Shown: positions 23,998 to 35,033 of the stretch, in pieces
How positions within the stretch are numbered: the stretch's first letter is position 1
Layout of the letters: each line of letters starts with the position of its first letter
DNA from: Pseudoxanthomonas sp. NC8
GTDB taxonomy: Bacteria > Pseudomonadota > Gammaproteobacteria > Xanthomonadales > Xanthomonadaceae
Direction: 5' to 3'
DNA length: 64,000 nucleotides
NCBI GenBank assembly: GCA_025232375.1
Contig: CP060419.1
Span: forward strand, 2,665,001 to 2,729,000
Notes under the pieces: model-generated
The model's database searches: none
The model's input: the letters and a program-made list of their open reading frames with translations, nothing else
Told to the model about the DNA's origin: nothing
Program-made: the position numbers and the translations under genes

Positions 23998-24281
23998 TCA
24001 GGCGACCGCGAAACCCGGTGCGACCTCGTCCGGCGTGGGTGCCGGTACCGGCTCCAGCCCATCGACCCGCGCCCGCGGCGGCCCCTGTCGCAGCCAGGCT
24101 TCCAGTGCGGCCAATGCCTCGGGCCTACCCGATGCCACCACCTCGACCCGGCCGTCGGCCAGGTTGACCGCGCTGCCGTCAATCCCAGCCGCAGCGCCTG
24201 CTCGCGGGTGGAGGCGCGGAAGAACACGCCCTGCACGCGTCCGGACACGTACCAGCGCGCGGCGGCGCGGCGCTCGCTCAT
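23998..24281 (-). CDS. acyP: Acylphosphatase
   Basis: Small enzyme hydrolysing carboxyl-phosphate bonds. The active-site loop GRVQGVFFR supplies the catalytic Arg, and the Asn lies in [14 protein letters not shown] one-base loss near 24181 within LRLG(I)DGSAV breaks the frame. Corrected length is about 94 residues. Its start overlaps the stop of the TlpA-like gene (ATGA). Confidence 0.88.
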
Positions 24282-24867
24282 TGCAGCTTGCCGGCGGCGG
24301 CTTCCACCGCCGTCTCGATGTCGTAGGCGGTGACCGGACCAACGAAATGCCGGGCGACCTTGCCATCCGGCGATAGCAGGTAGGTGGTCGGCAGGCCGCG
24401 CGGCGTGGCGAAATCCTGCGGCGGACTCATCGGATCGAGGATCACGATCGGATAGGACACCGGATGCTCGCGCAGGAACTCGCGCATCTCCTCCACGCTG
24501 ATGTCCTCGTAGGTAAGGCCAACGACCTCGATCTGGTCGCGCATGGTGTGCAGCGCGGCCAGTTCGGGCATCTCCTTCAGGCACGGCCCGCACCAGGTCG
24601 CCCAGAAGTTCACCACCACCCAGCGCCCGCGGTACGCAGCCAGGTCGTAAGGCTTGCCGTCGACCGCCGTGGCGACCAGCCGCGGCATGTCGGCGGTACG
24701 CTCGACCACGCCCGGCTGCGACTGGGGGGAATGCCCTCGTCCTGGGAGGGCGCGGCAGGCGCGGTGGTCGGCGGCTGCGCGGCCGGCGCCACGGGTGTCG
24801 GCGACGACTCGGGCCGGCACGCGGACAGGACCAGCAGCGCCGGCAGCAGCAGGAGGGAAACACGCAT
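24278..24867 (-). CDS. TlpA-family thiol-disulfide lipoprotein
   Basis: Membrane-anchored thioredoxin-fold reductase. A signal segment ends in lipobox LVLSAC, followed by a Pro/Ala linker and a thioredoxin domain with [12 protein letters not shown] and the cis-Pro region [12 protein letters not shown]. One C is missing in the C-run near 24725, shifting the frame between the linker and [13 protein letters not shown]. Length about 196 residues. GLTYED near 24513 carries GGTAAGG, so the Thr may be Ala. Between yihY (2-bp gap) and acyP (overlap). Confidence 0.87.
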
Positions 24868-24869
24868 GC

Positions 24870-26146
24870 TCAGGTCCCCGTTCGTTCAATGCTGGAAGGA
24901 TAGAGGTTGCCGACCCGGCGCTTGAGTGCGTCGCGCAACGGCAGGCGCAGGTCGTCGAGTACCGCATACGCGGCCGCGCCCAGCTCGTCGTCGCGGCACG
25001 GCAACCAGGCCTCGTCGATCGGCACGCGCAACTGGCAGGCCTCGTAGAGTTCGGTAAGGGTCAGGCCGTCCAGATCGCGCGCCAGCAGCCATTCGCCGCG
25101 TTCGTCGCGCCGCACCAGGCTGATCCCGTCCAGACTGCCAAGGAATTCCTGCAGCAGCGAATCGGTCAGCATCGGCTCCAGCGCCAGCATCTCGCTGGGT
25201 ATGCAGGCCCCGTCCTTCGCGACGCGCCTGCTGGAAACGGCCGATCAGCCGCAGCAGCGCATAGCCCTCGTAGCCTTGCGGCAACCGCATCGACGCGGGC
25301 TGGTAGCGGAACGCGGCCAGCGAGGACGCCAGCGAGGCACCGAGCAGGATCGCGACCCAGCTGAGATAGATCCACAGCATCAGGACCGGCACGGCGGCGA
25401 GCGTGCCATACAGCTTCTGGTAGCTGCGGAAGCTGCCCAGTACAGGCCCAGCCCCGCCTTCACCGCCTCCAGCAGCACCACCGCCAGCAGCGCGCCGGCG
25501 AAGGCATGCCGCCATTGCACCGTGTGGTGCGGCACCACGCGGTAGGCGACCATGACCGCGGCCATTTCGATCAGCACGGGGGTCATGCCAGGCTCAGGTC
25601 GACCAGCCACTGCCCGCCCGGCCAATCGAACACCCCTGACGCGAGGAACTTCGCCGACACCGACAGCGAGGCCGCCGCGAGCAGCGCGCCCAGGTCAGCA
25701 CGGTCCAGTAGATAAGGTACCGGGACAGCCGCGGACGGGCGCTGGCCACGCGCCAGATCCGGTTGAAGGTGGTCTCAACGCTGTGCAGGGTGACCAGCAG
25801 CGAGACGACCGGGGCCACGGTGCCGGCGGCGGTGAGCTCGGTGATGCTCGCCTTGACGGAGACAAGCCTGGCCTCGATCGCCCGCGCCGAACTGGGCACG
25901 AAGTTGGCGAATACATAGTCGACCAGCGCATCGCTCAGTTTCGCGAACACCGGGAACGCAGCCAGCACCCCCAGCACCACCACCGCCAGCGGCACCAGCG
26001 CGAAGGCGGTGGTGTAGGCCAGTGAGCCGGCCATGGAACAGGTTGTCGTCGAGGAAGCGGCGCCACAGGAACCGGGCGAACGTGGCCGCGCGCGCGCGGT
26101 CGCGCACGCGTTCGCGCCAGCCAGCGATGATCCCCTTGATGCCCAT
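24870..26146 (-). CDS. YihY/BrkB family membrane protein
   Basis: Polytopic inner-membrane protein of the YihY (former RNase BN) family. The frame holds the family region FVPSSARAIEARL, several membrane segments (LAVVVLGVLAAFPVF, MLWIYLSWVAILLGASLAS), and a cytoplasmic C-terminal domain with SLLQEFLGSLDGISLVRRDE. At least five frame breaks (near 26030, 25695, 25590, 25440 and 25205) scatter it over all three frames. Length about 424 residues. ATG 26146 (MGIKGIIAGWRERV) chosen by coding pattern. Biochemical role is not established. Confidence 0.83.
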
Positions 26147-27769: not shown

Positions 27770-27783
27770 GCCGCGCCGTGTCC

Positions 27784-28253
27784 ATGGCCACGCGCGCCAC
27801 CCGCGCGCTCGACGCCGCAGGCGTGGCCTATCGCCTGCACCCGTACGACTACGAAGCCGACGCGGCCGGCGGCAAGGGCGTGCACGCCGCGCTCTCGCTG
27901 GGCGTGCCGCCGGGCCGGGTGCTGAAGACGCTGATGGCGTGGATCGACGCCAGCCCGGTATGCGTGGTGATTCCCGCCGACCGCCAGCTGCAGCCCAAGG
28001 CGCTGGCCGCGGCCGGCGGCGGCAAGGCGGCGCGGATGATGGAGATCCCCGAAGCCGAACGCCGCAGCGGCTACAAGGTCGGGGGATCAGTCCGTTCGGC
28101 CAGCAAAGGCCGCCGGCGGTGTGGTTCGAGCAGGACGCGATGGCCGAGGACAGCGTCTTCATCAACGCCGGCCAGCGCGGCCTGCTGCTGGAGCTGGCGC
28201 CCGGCGATGCGGTCCGCCTGCTGCGGGCGCAGCTGGCTTCGATCAGCCGATAG
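27784..28253 (+). CDS. ybaK: Cys-tRNA(Pro)/Cys-tRNA(Cys) deacylase
   Basis: Editing-domain protein that hydrolyses mischarged Cys-tRNA(Pro). The N-terminus HPYDYEADAAGGKGVHAA, the catalytic-lysine region GVPPGRVLKTLMA and GYKVGGISPFGQ are typical. A base missing near 28084 (GGGGGCATC read as GGGGGATC) breaks the frame before SPFGQ. Length about 157 residues, 14 bp downstream of the asparaginase-domain gene. Confidence 0.9.
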
Positions 28254-28380
28254 CCGCGCCGGTCAGCCTGGATGGCGCCGCATATTCCTGCCGTCCATAT
28301 CCAGATGACAATCAGTAAATAATCAAACACCGTTTTTTTAACAGAATGCGCTTCTCCATTGTGCAGGTCCCGCCCTCGCG
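28254..28380 (+). promoter_or_regulatory. AT-rich upstream region of the TonB receptor
   Basis: 127-bp spacer with a marked drop in GC, including GATGACAATCAGTAAATAAT near 28304-28323 and a run of seven Ts near 28333. It probably carries the promoter of the receptor-cytochrome locus. No convincing Fur box or -35/-10 pair was found. Confidence 0.45.
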
Positions 28381-30950
28381 ATGGAAAACGTTCCAATGCA
28401 GTTGCTCCGCAGCGACCTCGCCCGTCCCCGACGCTCCCTCCTTACCACGGCCACCCTGCTCGCCCTCGCCGCCGCCCCTGCCGCCTTCGCCGAAGGGGCG
28501 ACTGCCGCCGCCGGCGGCGCCGACGATGCGGTCTCCAATCTCGATGCGGTGCTGGTCACCGGGTCACGCGCGAGCAATCGCACCGTCGCCAACAGCGCCG
28601 TGCCGATCGACGTGGTTTCGAGCAACGAGATCGTCGCCACCGGCAAGTCCAACCTGCTCGAAGCGCTGCAGGTGCTGCTGCCGTCGCTGAGCCAGCAGGC
28701 CCGCCAGTCGGACGTGGAAGGCAACATCCCGGGCGCGCAGCTGCGCAACCTGCCACCGGGCTACACCCTGGTGTTGATCAACGGCAAGCGGCGCAACACC
28801 AGCGCCTACGCCTCGGTCGGCACGTTCCCGGGCCAGTCGTGGACCGACCTGTCGCTGATCCCGGTCTCGGCGATCGAGCGCGTGGAAGTGCTGCGCGACG
28901 GAGCGTCGGCGATCTACGGCTCGGACGCCATCGCCGGCGTGTTCAACATCATCCTGAAGACCTCGCCGGACGCCGGTTCGGCCTCGCTTGAGCTGGGCAC
29001 CAGCTACGAAGGCGACGGCGACCGCCTGATCGCCACCTTCAACCACGGCTTCGCCCTGGGCGAGCGCGGCTTCCTCAACCTGACCGCCGAGTACACCGAT
29101 AAGAATACGCCGTCCGCAGCCTCGAGTACCGCGACACCTACCTTTCCTACCCGGCGATCAACGCCAGCGGCAACCCGGTCAAGCTGGGCATCAACAACAG
29201 CCTGCCGGCCGGCACCACCCCCAATCCGGCCGAAGCCACCCGCAACCGCTACGCCCAGAACAACCAGGGCGTGGCCGAATTCGCCACCATGGCGGTGGCC
29301 GCGAACTGGAACGCCGGCATCACCGAGGCCGTCGACTTCTACGGCTTCACCACCTACTCCTCGCGCACGTCGGCGCAGCTGCAGAACCATCGCCTGCCGG
29401 CCACCATCTTCGCCAGCAACAAGGGGTTGCTGTCCGTGTATCCGGACGGGTTCACCCCTCGATTGACACCGACGAGGTCGACTATTCGGTGGTGGGCGGC
29501 TTCACCGGCACGGCCGGCGGCTGGAACTGGGACGCCAGCGCGACCTACAACCGCAACTACATCGACATCTACACCCGCAACAGCGCCAATTTCAGCCTGG
29601 CCTACCCCGGCGCGAAGACCGACTTCTACGACGGACGCCTGGACTACGCGCAGTGGATCGGCAACTTCGACGTCAAGCGCTCGTTCGAGAACACCGTGTT
29701 CGCCTCGCCGATCGACCTGAGCCTTGGCCTGGAGTACCAGCACGAGGACTACCAGCGCTACGCCGGCGAACCCGATTCGTACTTCGGCAGCGGCGCGGTG
29801 GCCTACCCGGGCAACGCGCCCCGCGACGTGGCCGAGTCGACCCGCCACCGCGTGGCCGCCTATGCCGGCGCCGCCGCCAACCTGACCGAGCGCTGGTACC
29901 TGGACCTGGCCGCCCGCTTCGAGGACCATTCCGACTTCGGCAACGTCTCCACCGGCCGCATCACCAGCCGCTTCGACTTCAACGAGAAGTTCGCCGTGCG
30001 CGGCACCATCAGCGACGGCTTCCACGCGCCGGCCTGGCGGCGCAGAACCTGCAGATCACCAAGGTCACCCCGACCACCAGCGAACTGACCGCGCGCGTCG
30101 GCTCGGCGGTGGCGGTCGCCCTCGGCGCCACCCCGCTGGAGCCGGAGAAGGCGGACAACTACAGCGTGGGCGTGGTGTTCAGCCCGACCCGCAGCTTCCA
30201 CGCGGCGCTGGACCTGTTCCAGATCGACATCAGCGACCAGATCGGCCGCTCCAGCAACATCGGCTACAACGCCGCCAACCCCAACGCCGTGGTCGATGCC
30301 TCCAACACGGTGCTCACCGCCGCGCAGAAGCAGATCGTGGACTCGCTGCTCGGCGCCGCCAGCGTGGCCATCCCCGCCGGTGGTTCGTACTTCGTCAACT
30401 ACTACACCAACATCGGCGACACCCGCACCCGCGGCGTCGAGTTCACCCTTGAATCGTCGCATTCGCTGTCGTGGGGCAACCTGCGCTGGAACTACGGATT
30501 CAACCGCAACCTGACCGAGTTCACCCGGGTCCAGCCGGTGTCCCCGGTCCTGCAGGGACTTCCGAACATCACCCTGCTCAGCCAAAGCGCCCAGTACGAC
30601 GTGCGCTACCGCGTGCCGGACTACCAGCACGTCGCCGGTGCGTACTGGAGCAACGGCGGCTGGCGCGCCAACATCAACTTCATCTGGGGGCCGACCCGGC
30701 ATCCCTGGGCGGCACCGTGCAGTGGGAGATCGACCCGGAGCTGGTCACCAACATCGGCGGCGGCTACGAGTTCGCCAACGGCTGGTCGCTGGACGCGGGC
30801 GTGAACAACGTCACCGACGAGTACCCGAGCAAGGTGCCCGAGGCCGCCCTGAGCGCCGCCTCCAACGCGGTCTACAAATGGCAGTACTCCGGCGGTTCGC
30901 TGAACAGGCTCGGCGGCTACTACTACGCACGGGCGTCCTACCGCTTCTGA
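28381..30950 (+). CDS. TonB-dependent outer-membrane receptor
   Basis: 22-stranded barrel receptor with a plug domain. A signal peptide (LLTTATLLALAAAPAAFA) is followed by a TonB box-like stretch (DAVLVTGSR), plug motifs (LEALQVLLPSLSQQ, VEVLRDGASAIYGSDAIAGV) and a barrel ending in YYYARASYRF with the C-terminal Phe. Breaks near 29105, 29455, 30040 and 30695 split it; joined length is about 850 residues. Start may be 28381 or the ATG at 28396. The ligand is unknown; it heads a locus with two cytochromes and a thioredoxin-like protein. Confidence 0.92.
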
Positions 30951-30960
30951 AGCACGCGCG

Positions 30961-30987
30961 GCGGCGCCTTCCTCCCGGAAGCGCCGC
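30961..30987 (+). terminator. GC-rich hairpin after the TonB receptor gene
   Basis: Inverted repeat GCGGCGC-CTTCC with GGAAG-CGCCGC around a 4-nt loop, one bulged base, 11 bp after the receptor stop. No T-run follows, so termination would be weak or the hairpin protects the mRNA end. Confidence 0.45.
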
Positions 30988-31119
30988 CGCATCCGCCGTC
31001 GGTCCGCGGTGAGTCGCTTTGCTCATCACCTGCGGACGACATCTCATAAATCGCTAGCCGCGTGCGCCCGCTCCGTGACCTAGGATCGGATCGCTGCGGA
31101 TGAACCATGGAATCGGCTG

Positions 31120-31564
31120 GTGCGAGCTTCGCGTGGATTGATCGTCTACCTGTTCGGCGTCTCGTTGTGCGCGGTCGCGCTTGCCACCTGGTCGCAGGAA
31201 ACGCCGGGCGGTTCCTCAGCGGTCGACCACATGTCCGCATCGAAACACCACAACCTGCAGGTGCTGCCCGGCGACGTGTCCGTGCCGATCCCAGTAAGGA
31301 CGATGAAGCGCTACGAGCGCGACCTCGGCGTCACCTGCGCCTACTGCCATGTCGAGGACCGCGGCACCGGCAAGTTCGACTACGCCTCGGACGAAAACCC
31401 GAAGAAGGAAACCACCCGGATCATGATCGCCATGCTCGACGACATCAACGAGCGCCACCTTGGCGCGGATGGGCGGGGACCAGCGCTACGCTGCGGCGGT
31501 CACCTGCGGCAGCTGCCGCCGGGGCCGCGCCAGTCCGCCGGCGTGGGAGGGCAAGCGCCAATGA
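31120..31564 (+). CDS. Periplasmic c-type cytochrome, reaction-centre cytochrome-subunit-like
   Basis: Exported haem protein of about 147 residues. A membrane segment (GLIVYLFGVSLCAVALATW) precedes HNLQVLPGDVSVPIP and a haem site CAYCH, then FDYASDENPKKETTRIMI, a pattern I associate with the photosynthetic reaction-centre cytochrome c family found in many non-phototrophs. A second site reads CGSCR instead of CxxCH. One extra T at CCTGG near 31459 breaks the frame. GTG 31120 is the only suitable start. The stop overlaps the next gene (ATGA). Confidence 0.8.
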
Positions 31565-32987
31565 CCGTAGGCCCGGACATTCCCCGCGGCAACGGCAAGC
31601 GCTGGCCCACGGCGCTGGCGGCGACGCTGGCCATCGTGTCTGGCGTGGTCCTGCTGGCACCGGCCGACGCGCAGATCGCCGTGCGCAACCAGGGCTACAT
31701 TCCCTACGACGATGCGCCGATCCACTACCGCTCGGAAAACATCGACGACCCGGTTTCGGTGCTGCAGCGCAAGCTGGAAGCGGGCAAGGCGCGCCTGGTC
31801 CACGACGGCAGCGCGCACGGCTACCTCGAGTCGGTGCTGACGCAGCTGGACATCCCGGTCAGCTCGCAGACCCTGGTGTTCTCCAAGACCAGCTTCCAGT
31901 ACCCGCATATTTCGCCGGAACACCCGCGCGCGCTGTACTTCAACGACGACGTGTACATCGGCGTGGTCAACGAGGGGTAAGGAGATCGAGGTCGTCTCCT
32001 TCGACCGCAACCAGGGCGCGATCTTCTTCATCCTGCACGAGCAGGCGACCGAGCGGCCGCGCTTCGAACGGGCCGAACTGGACTGCACCCAGTGCCACAT
32101 CGCCGCGGGCACCCGCGGCGTGCCCGGGGTCCTGGTGCGCTCGGTGTATCCCACCACCAGCGGCACCTGGTGACCGGGTCGAAGTCCTATATCACCGACC
32201 AGGACAGCCCCTCCTCGCAACGCTGGGGCGGCTGGTACGTGAGCGGCCCGCTGGCCACCGGCAGCATGGCCAACGCGATCGCACCGGACGGCGCGGCCTC
32301 CCTCAAGCCCGCGCTGCAGGCGCTGCCGGAGCACAGCTTCGATCCGGCCAAGTACCTGGCTCCCGGCAGCGACGCGGTCGCACTGCTGGTCCTCGGTCAC
32401 CAGACCGGGCCCACAACCTGATCACCCTGACCAACTACCGCACCCGGATCGCGCTGCATGCTGTCGGTGGCGACGCGGCGCTGGCCTCGCCGCCGCCGCT
32501 CGAGAGCCTGCCGGAGGAGGCGCGGGAGAAGATCGTGCGACCGGCCGAGCAGCTGCTGCGCTACCTGCTGTTCGCCGACGAGACCCCGCTGCACGGTGCC
32601 AACGGCGCGCAGGCGATCGCCGCCTCGCCGTTCGCGCGCGAATTCGCCGGGCGTGGCCCGCGCGATTCGCAGGGCCGCTCGCTGCGCGACTTCGACCTGG
32701 ATGCACGCCTCTTCCGCTACCCGCTCAGCTACCTGGTCTATACGGACGCCTTCGACGCGCTGCCCGAGCCGGCCAAGGGCTACGTCTACCAGCGCCTGCT
32801 GCAGGTGCTCAGCGGTAAGGACGACAGCGGCGAGTTCGACACCATTTCCGCCGAGGACAAGCGTGCAGTCCTCGAGATCCTGCTGGAAACCAAGGCGGGA
32901 CTGCCGCCGCAATGGCAGGCATACGCACGCAGCAACCACCTGCGGATCGCAGCGGCCACTCCGGCCGGACGACCGCTCCGCCGCTAG
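31561..32987 (+). CDS. Large monohaem cytochrome-like protein of unknown function
   Basis: About 475 residues. A hydrophobic signal (ALAATLAIVSGVVLLAPADA) is followed by a body with one haem motif, CTQCH, after RPRFERAELD. Recognisable conserved-looking stretches are VSSQTLVFSKTSFQ, ALYFNDDVYIGVV, RWGGWYVSG and FAGRGPRDSQGRSLRDFDL. Frame breaks lie near 31977, 32170 (C lost at CCCTGG) and 32405. I recall similar unnamed proteins in Acidobacteria and Planctomycetes but cannot name a family. Coupled to the preceding cytochrome gene by an ATGA overlap. Confidence 0.75.
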
Positions 32988-33022
32988 ACCACCCAAGCGC
33001 CACCACCCACGAGGAAGCGACC

Positions 33023-34368
33023 ATGAAACGCCTCATCCGAACCACCAGCCTCGCGCTGCTGCTCGCCGGCAGTTCCACCGCATATGGGCCGACTCCCCGG
33101 TCGATGGCCGCTGGGACGCCCAGCTGGTCCGCGGCGATACCGTCATTCCGTTCCGCCTCGACATCGCCGGCGAAGGCGCGGCGCTGAAAGGCACCTTCTA
33201 CGACGGCTTCAAGCCGTACGAGACCACCACCGGCGCCAGCTACAAGAACGACACCCTGGTGCTGGACATCGGCCACTACCTGACCCGCATCACCGCCCAC
33301 CTGGAAAACGGGCGACTGGTCGGCGACGTGGTCGCGCAGAACCGCGGCGCGCGTTCCGAGTACGAGTTCGTCGCCGTGCGCCATGATCCGAAGGCCGCCG
33401 CCGCGGCGGCCGCGGTGCAGGCGCCGTCGATCGCCGGCAACTGGGAGATCCCGCTGTCCGATCCGTCGGCCAAGGGCGAGAAGGCGTTCCGTTTCATCGT
33501 CGAGCAGAAGGGCGCCGAAGTGGCCGCCTCGATCCTGCGCGTGGACGGCGACACGGGCGCCTACAGCGGCGTGTTCAAGAACGGCGCGTGGCAGCTGAGC
33601 CACTTCGACGGCTCCCGCCCCGGCGTGATCGAGGTGACCCCGCAGGCGGACGGCACCCTGCGCATCGTGCAGGGCGGCGCCCGCGCGCAGCGCAGCGCGG
33701 CCGACGCCTATGCCGCCGCACCCGACGGCCGCGCTGCGCGGGTGTTCACCGCGTACCGCCCCGAAGTGGCGCGCGCCAAGGGCCTGCCGCAGCCGGCCAA
33801 CCACCTGACCCACAGCACCGCGCGCGACGCGGGCGAGAAATTCACCTTCAGCTTCCCCGACCTGGATGGCCGCCTGCGCAGCCACGACGACCCGGGCTTC
33901 AAGGGCAAGGCGGTGATCGCGGTGGTGACCGGCACCTGGTGCCCCAACTGCCATGACGAAGCCCAGTACCTTGGCCGAACTGGACCGCAAGTACCGCGAC
34001 CAGGCCTGGCGGTGGTGGCCCTGAACTTCGAGGAGGTCGAGCAGCAGCAGTCGCTGCAGCGCGCACGCGCCTTCGTCAGCCAGTACAACGTGGAGTATCC
34101 GTACCTGCAGGCCGGCTCGCCGGAGGAGATGTGGGCCAAGGTTCCGCAGCTGGTGAACCTCAACACCTGGCCGACCACGCTGTTCATCGGCCGCGACGGC
34201 ACCATCCGCGCCGTCCACTCCGGCTTCGGTTCGCCGGCCACCGGCGACTTCTACGCCAAGCAGGACAAGGAGTTCACCAGCCGCGTGGAACAGCTGCTGG
34301 CCGAGAAGGCCCCGGTGGCGGCGGAAACCCCGGCGCCTGCCGATCCGGTGGCGGTGGCCGACCACTGA
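33023..34368 (+). CDS. TlpA-like thioredoxin-fold protein with duplicated beta-rich N-terminal domains
   Basis: Exported protein of about 447 residues. After a signal (LIRTTSLALLLAGSSTA) come two related beta-rich units, near residues 24-120 (VDGRWDAQLVRGDTVIPFRL) and 137-230 (IAGNWEIPLSDPS), then a C-terminal AhpC/TlpA-type domain with GTWCPNCHDEAQYL and NTWPTTLFIGRDG. A +2 error near 33085 (GCATGGGCC read as GCATATGGGCC) splits signal from body; +1 near 33970 and -1 near 34007 cancel. Lies 35 bp after the large cytochrome and probably shares its transcript. Confidence 0.82.
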
Positions 34369-34411: not shown

Positions 34412-34439
34412 GAAGGCCCGCCTTGCAAGGCGGGCCTTC
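34412..34439. terminator. Bidirectional rho-independent terminator
   Basis: Perfect 11-bp stem GAAGGCCCGCC / GGCGGGCCTTC around TTGCAA, followed by TCTTTG on the plus strand and by GTTTTT on the minus strand. It sits between the convergent stops of the thioredoxin-like gene (34368) and sufT (34484), so it can serve both. Confidence 0.85.
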
Positions 34440-34483: not shown

Positions 34484-35033
34484 TCAGAACATCCCGGTTT
34501 CCAGCCGCGCCGCCTCGGACATCATGTGCCGGCCCCACGGCGGATCGAACACCAGCTCCACGTCGGCCTCGGCGATGGTCGGAATCTGCTCGAGCTTGCT
34601 GCGCACGTCATCGACAGGATCTCGCCCATGCCACAGCCGGGCGCGGTCAGGGTCATCTTCACCTCCACCATGCGGCTGCCGTCATCGCGCGGCTTCAGGC
34701 TGGCCTCGTACACCAGGCTACAGGTCGACGATGTTGAACGGGATTTCCGGGTCGAAGCAGGTGCGCAGCTGGCGCCAGACCATGGCCTCGACCTCGCCGT
34801 CGCTGGCATCGGCCGGCAGTGCCAGCTCCGCCGCCGGCTCCTTGCCGATGGCGTCGGCGTCCTTCCCGGCGATGCGGAACAGGTTGCCTTCGACGAAGAC
34901 GGTGTAGCTGCCACCGGGCCTGGGTGATGTAGCCGACGCTGCCGGCGGGCAGGGTCACGGCTTCGCCCTGCGGCACCATGACGGCGGCGCAATCGCGCTC
35001 AAAACGGACGGGTTCGCTGCTGCGGGAATACAT
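34484..35033 (-). CDS. sufT: Fe-S cluster assembly protein SufT (MIP18/DUF59)
   Basis: Auxiliary iron-sulfur maturation factor. The SufT-type N-terminus (RDCAAVMVPQGEAVTLPAG) precedes the DUF59 core with FDPEIPFNIVDLSLVYE and TAPGCGMGEIL, then VELVFDPPWGRHMMSEAARL. Breaks near 34920, 34725 and 34612 spread it over three frames. Corrected length is about 183 residues, with stop at 34484-34486. No other suf gene is in the window. Confidence 0.88.

Follow-up and report, generated by a model that had tools for sequence, protein, structure and literature searches.

Haem enzymes of the MauG/MbnH kind that are linked to outer-membrane receptors are known beside systems importing metal compounds, according to excerpts of PMC3621798. 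In the methanobactin system, the TonB-dependent receptor MbnT accompanies the MbnP/MbnH (MauG-like) pair, so that receptor and periplasmic c-type haem enzyme share a gene setting. Other described families relevant here are the thioredoxin-fold proteins ResA, TlpA and CcmG with DsbD, the PufC-like non-photosynthetic cytochromes (NF033196, PF02276), and the di-haem cytochrome c peroxidase/MauG family (PF03150). Here we analyse a cassette of four genes, encoding a TonB-dependent receptor, two c-type cytochromes (c1 and c2) and a thioredoxin-like protein, in a 64,000-nucleotide stretch of Pseudoxanthomonas sp. NC8 (contig CP060419.1, positions 2,665,001 to 2,729,000; hereafter the window). Like the methanobactin genes, the cassette combines a receptor with a c-type haem protein, and sister loci in the genus carry an MbnH/MauG-like protein; it differs in that c2 is not a CCP_MauG protein and in that a thioredoxin-like protein takes part. 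The explanation we favour, to which we give about an even chance, is that the cassette is a laterally acquired, receptor-linked periplasmic redox module in which c2 would be the enzyme and the ResA/TlpA-type protein a thiol arm. The data show the gene content, the behaviour of the genes as a unit, their recurring neighbours, the protein families, and the absence of c2 from the family libraries; export, the electron route, the role of c2 as an enzyme and a substrate shared by the receptor and the redox proteins are inferred.

The four genes and the genes bordering them, whose names YbaK and SufT/DUF59 we take to be the appropriate ones, are as follows (window coordinates):

28381 to 30950, + strand: TonB-dependent receptor, with Plug and TonB_dep_Rec_b-barrel matches on three pieces; four frame breaks
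31120 to 31567, + strand: c1, small, predicted exported cytochrome with two CxxCH motifs, PufC-like 'c_type_nonphoto' (NF033196); one frame break
31564 to 32987, + strand: c2, c-type cytochrome with one haem motif (CTQCH), predicted to be exported and matching no named family; three frame breaks
33023 to 34368, + strand: thioredoxin-like protein, predicted to be exported, whose N-terminal half is beta-rich and whose thioredoxin domain, of the ResA/TlpA type, carries WCPNC, from comparison of the window with a congener and families assigned on homologs
27776 to 28253, + strand: YbaK-like gene, left border of the block
34486 to 35030, - strand: SufT/DUF59-like gene, right border of the block

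This order is the one first described in an earlier note made from the letters alone, and coordinates and RNA fold agree with its details: 169 bp and a hairpin between the receptor and c1, an ATGA overlap of c1 with c2, and 35 bp from c2 to the thioredoxin-like gene, all on the same strand.

The frames of all four genes are broken in the window, a point absent from the earlier note, with about ten shifts altogether, and each gene shows these breaks when compared with relatives (in the thioredoxin-like gene they fall in the signal peptide and the thioredoxin domain). A congener, G540, which was reached by searching 17 genomes of the genus with the Novosphingobium thioredoxin-like protein, has all four genes, identically ordered and flanked, in open frames: 862 aa for the receptor, 149 aa for c1, 479 aa for c2, and 625 aa for the thioredoxin-like protein, whose frame continues past the stop point of the window gene and of which only the first 451 residues were compared. 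Amino-acid identity between the window pieces and G540 is 84% for the receptor (775 codons), 72% for c1 (114), 79% for c2 (457) and 86% for the thioredoxin-like protein (395). About ten breaks over four genes might mean that they are genuine and that the cassette is decaying in this strain. However, YbaK, the SufT-like gene and PntB, which lie beside the cassette, are split in the window too and whole in relatives, the source genome is a single contig of 3.54 Mb with a completeness of 57%, and the ratio of nonsynonymous to synonymous divergence (dN/dS) between the window and G540 stays below 1 (0.30-0.40 for the four genes; 0.33 for the receptor). We regard decay as highly improbable, and because of the split flanks and the low completeness of a one-contig genome we read the shifts as most likely being sequence errors.

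The idea in the earlier note that the four genes are one genomic unit was borne out within the genus. The YbaK protein of G540 found a match in 15 of 17 genomes and none in the remaining two. The two carriers among the 15, the window genome and G540, have all four genes at one site, and in 13 of the 13 other readable congeners the SufT-like gene adjoins YbaK at a distance of 57 to 1191 bp, and the interval contains no match to any of the four (E 1e-8). The 1191-bp gap, at L062, contains a 361-codon open frame unrelated to the four genes, and at L057 and L065 a receptor of 36% identity lies in another part of the stretch, not between the flanks. Since 13 of 13 sites are empty and both carriers are complete, the four genes have been gained or lost as one block. 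Synonymous divergence (pS) between the window and G540 is 0.26-0.38 in the block, like that of the flanks (0.18-0.32); both carriers therefore probably inherited the block from a common ancestor.

Parts of the set recur outside the genus. Five c2 loci are readable, those of the window, G540, G754 (another genus of the same family) and two Novosphingobium. The earlier note had proposed co-occurrence as a check on the set, and the outcome was graded: the thioredoxin-like gene follows c2 in all five, c1 precedes c2 in three, and some receptor is present in the region in all five, its ortholog only in the window, G540 and G754. The G754 receptor has 54% identity over residues 5-860; that of Novosphingobium, about 3 kb upstream of c2, has 33% over 187 residues, a partial-length match. 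Within about 14 kb, G754 carries the receptor, an MFS gene, the run YceI-DsbD_N-TlpA-DsbD, and the run b561-cytochrome c'-c1-c2-thioredoxin-like gene, so that cytochrome b561 and cytochrome c'-like genes lie 5' of c1 in the same run; YceI and TlpA were named by eye and by similarity, the cytochrome c'-like protein scored 26.0 bits against a cut-off of 26.5, and DsbD_N scored 25.0 bits, at its cut-off. Both Novosphingobium loci read DsbD_N-c2-thioredoxin-like gene-class I cytochrome c. None of the extra genes seen at the G754 and Novosphingobium loci was found in the 64 kb of the window (E 1e-4).

With G540 as the reference, c2 is 60-61% identical to the Novosphingobium proteins and 58% to that of G754, a member of its own family; for the thioredoxin-like protein the values are 60-61% and 46-47%. 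Because the G540 proteins are as close or closer to Novosphingobium than to same-family G754, this suggests that the cassette genes were transferred laterally across classes. An alternative is that the genes are unrelated, neighbours by chance, and were inserted once, and the block in the window and G540 may indeed trace to one event, given that its pS is like that of the flanks. But in G754 c1, c2 and the thioredoxin-like gene recur in another arrangement, close to an orthologous receptor, and the pair of c2 and the thioredoxin-like gene recurs in another class, and we consider a chance set very unlikely.

Homologs of c2 were found in six genomes: three in one family (the window genome, G540 and G754), another gammaproteobacterium (G1084) and the two Novosphingobium. 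Within the genus, 2 of 17 genomes have c2, and within the family 3 of 395; the search that yielded G1084 found c2 in 2 of 369 genomes, the other carrier being the window genome. Only G754 had c2 among 38 genomes of its genus, only G1084 among 36 of its order, and only the window genome among 398 of the phylum, with a single sequence and then with a profile; no c2 was detected on plasmids at E 1e-5. These genome searches start with a loose first pass that may miss distant relatives, their samples overlap, and the search that found the Novosphingobium c2 detects close relatives only. Weak c2 rows for G054 and G126 (E about 1e-3) were dropped, as loci L003 and L004 do not match c2 on re-test. G126 has an NF033196 protein, with no match to the other cassette genes in the surrounding 15 kb. 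Proteins resembling c2 may also occur in Planctomycetes, as 'hypothetical protein' entries; the profile searches stayed within the phylum.

Next we considered what each protein is. The receptor pieces match PF07715 at 3.8e-20 and PF00593 at 2.6e-12 and 2.2e-19, and the window gene thus has the Plug domain and barrel of a TonB-dependent receptor. All 19 NCBIfam rows for the G540 receptor were under their cut-offs, and no subfamily of known ligand was assigned. The c1 protein exceeds the NF033196 cut-off of 70 bits in the window piece (72.5), G540 (101.7) and G754 (104.3), and the window piece also matches the Pfam family CytoC_RC; it differs from PufC in having two haem motifs, against the four that we take PufC to have.

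The c2 protein is a predicted c-type cytochrome, by its CxxCH motif and a hydrophobic N-terminus that we read by eye as an export signal. The motif is single and invariant among five aligned homologs, which have one further histidine in common (H284 in G540); we propose that it serves as the other haem ligand. Searches against Pfam, NCBIfam and PDB sequences gave no match for c2; a Pfam row for the G754 protein (E 0.25) and PDB profile rows at E 0.53 and 1.5 were taken as chance. The three homologs scanned matched neither PF03150 (CCP_MauG) nor TIGR04039 (MbnH), and c2 has one haem motif, against the two these families require.

The thioredoxin-like protein combines a thioredoxin fold with a CxxC active site and is in this sense of the ResA/TlpA type; the AhpC-TSA/ResA assignment was made on the homologs from L005 (Novosphingobium) and G540. 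The best matches of the domain are ResA, TlpA and DsbE/CcmG, all NCBIfam subfamily cut-offs being missed (ResA 55 of 170 and TlpA 44 of 230 bits for L005; ResA 55.8 of 170 and TlpA 29.6 of 230 bits for G540). WCPNC is invariant in six homologs. The AlphaFold2 model of the L005 protein has a predicted local distance difference test (pLDDT) score of 64 and aligned with ResA in Foldseek at a TMt of about 0.7; among the 50 Foldseek matches listed, the thioredoxin half was recognised and the N-terminal half received no assignment. The latter, of about 260 residues and beta-rich in the model, has no Pfam match and distinguishes the cassette protein from ResA, TlpA and CcmG. A separate TlpA-like frame with WCGPC lies at 24278-24967 (- strand) of the window, a few kb upstream of the cassette.

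Paralogs of the thioredoxin-like protein, about 30% identical to it, occur in the genus. At L021, L023, L024, L027 and L028 the gene is accompanied by a DsbD_N-like gene, a MauG/MbnH-like di-haem enzyme, DsbD and a YceI-like gene, and in two of these five (L023, L024) a receptor lies between a GpsA-like gene and the thioredoxin-like gene. At L025 and L026 we found a receptor, a dipeptidase-like gene, presumably of the M19 type, and the thioredoxin-like gene, with no match to c1, c2 or a MauG-like protein in 19 kb. The genome of the window itself has a further locus, L022 (G000:C1:3076000-3095000), where about 12 kb contains the thioredoxin-like gene, GxW-type genes, a receptor and relatives of DUF6152 and DUF6644, and neither c1 nor c2. 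The MauG-like protein of L023 passes the Pfam cut-off for CCP_MauG, with its best score to TIGR04039 (230 of 362.85 bits, below the cut-off), and the DsbD_N-like protein next to it falls short of the Pfam cut-off (20.5 of 25 bits); the names GpsA, YceI, M19 and TlpA at these loci were given by eye. From these gene contents, the same type of thioredoxin-like protein is placed with differing haem proteins and receptors.

These data bear on the main rival explanation, in which the thioredoxin-like protein would be a dedicated ResA/CcmG-type reductase holding the CxxCH cysteines of c1 and c2 in reduced form for haem attachment, without acting on an imported ligand. This would fit the ResA, TlpA and DsbE/CcmG matches, the DsbD_N-like or DsbD genes near the thioredoxin-like gene in Novosphingobium, G754 and the five sister loci, and the fact that the WCPNC cysteines are the sole ones in three of four homologs (G754 has two extra near the start of its long frame). 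Yet L025 and L026 pair the protein with a receptor and a dipeptidase-like gene and none of the cytochromes it would serve, and its N-terminal half lies outside the stretch matching ResA/CcmG. We find a pure maturation role rather unlikely.

The MauG-like proteins raise the alternative of copper acquisition or copper-site assembly: the receptor would import a copper chelate, the TlpA-like protein would reduce a copper site or chaperone, and c2 would stand in place of a MauG/MbnH-type enzyme. DUF6152, DUF6644 and a GxW-type gene are common to G754 and one of the two Novosphingobium, the other having just broken GxW gene pieces within about 10 kb. The DUF6152 proteins near c2 start with HHSF (His-His-Ser-Phe) if the signal is cleaved as we presume, and this terminus could be a metal site, presumably resembling that of CopC. 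Also consistent with copper are the best score of the sister-locus enzyme, to MbnH though below cut-off, one Foldseek hit of the thioredoxin domain to TlpA complexed with the copper chaperone ScoI, and, in the excerpts of PMC3621798, the occurrence of MbnH and MbnP with methanobactin operons and their receptors. On the other side, c2 has no CCP_MauG match, methanobactin biosynthesis genes and MbnP were not recognised by eye (no model search was made for them), and according to the same excerpts no data tied either the close homologues of MbnP or the partners of these to copper. We judge the copper reading unlikely, somewhat more so than maturation.

The DUF6152 proteins are at L074:13335-13784 (-) and L005:15875-16357 (+), each beside a DUF6644 protein. 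Proteins that look exported and contain a GADGxPxLxGxW-type segment lie near TonB receptors at L074:10082-12135 (+), L005:14830-15876 (-) and L022:6867-7523 (+); those of L074 and L005 had no Pfam or NCBIfam match.

As a receptor-linked redox module, the cassette would work as follows. The receptor would carry a ligand across the outer membrane, and c2 would act in the periplasm on this ligand or on a partner. The two-haem carrier c1 would connect c2 with the respiratory chain, as the b561 and cytochrome c'-like genes that precede c1 in G754 suggest, electrons passing between c2 and the quinone pool in either direction. The thioredoxin-like protein, reduced by DsbD, would give thiol electrons to the same substrate or, alternatively, keep the haem-binding cysteines or a metal site reduced. 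The interpretation in the earlier note finds partial support: the four genes form a single genomic unit, and a partly overlapping set is seen in a second genus and a second class. The coupling of uptake to haem and thiol chemistry that it proposed is a hypothesis, as is a complex of the proteins. More tentatively still, c2 may be the founder of a new family of periplasmic enzymes with one haem; together with a PufC-like di-haem donor and a ResA-like reductase of two parts, it would process the compound imported by the receptor, in a portable pathway whose haem enzyme could be swapped for a MauG-type one; we see this as possible and somewhat doubtful.

Several results weigh against the module. 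DsbD_N was matched neither in the 64 kb of the window nor in 20 kb read from G540. In Novosphingobium, neither locus has c1 or the orthologous receptor within about 10 kb to each side. In G1084, the 12.5 kb that follow c2 contain no thioredoxin-like gene, the other side being cut by the contig end. An AlphaFold2 model of c2 built from six alignment rows (four pieces of the window together with L005 and L006) had a pLDDT of 38, unusable for a fold search. Finally, dN/dS is a weak argument for selection, because sequence errors inflate dN and the flanking genes gave 0.42, 0.46 and 0.03 (the last two over few codons).

Other features in and around the cassette are:

28301 to 28328, + strand: AT-rich block 5' of the receptor gene, conserved in the spacer alignment with G540; candidate promoter or operator
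30958 to 30990, + strand: GC-rich hairpin after the receptor stop, without a T-run, from the RNA fold; absent from the terminator-like list of the pattern scan
31030 to 31119, + strand: spacer 5' of c1, parts of which are conserved in G540; may contain a second promoter
34412 to 34439, no strand assigned: 12-pair hairpin, from pattern scan and fold, in the gap that separates the cassette from the convergent gene downstream; G540 has a similar hairpin at this position

The DNA 5' of the receptor and of c1 is partly conserved between the window species and G540 in the spacer alignment, and a pattern scan found no sigma-70-like promoter upstream of either gene; the cassette may possibly form two transcripts. 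The strong terminator first claimed at its end stands as a hairpin, but the scan scored the full stem on the - strand and just a 5-pair version on the + strand. In all, six terminator-like sites were found, versus 3.7 in shuffles.

In the literature, searched with little coverage of subscription journals, we recognised no paper describing this gene set and found none on DUF6152 or DUF6644. PMC7567364 was considered as a precedent for MauG, a TonB-dependent receptor and DsbD together and set aside: in its excerpts these are separate Leptospira genes and a different set. A second haem protein, from a different sequence family but with similar gene surroundings, would add a new case to the receptor-linked haem enzymes, and the presence or absence of the block in close relatives makes the effect of the cassette directly testable by strain comparison or deletion.

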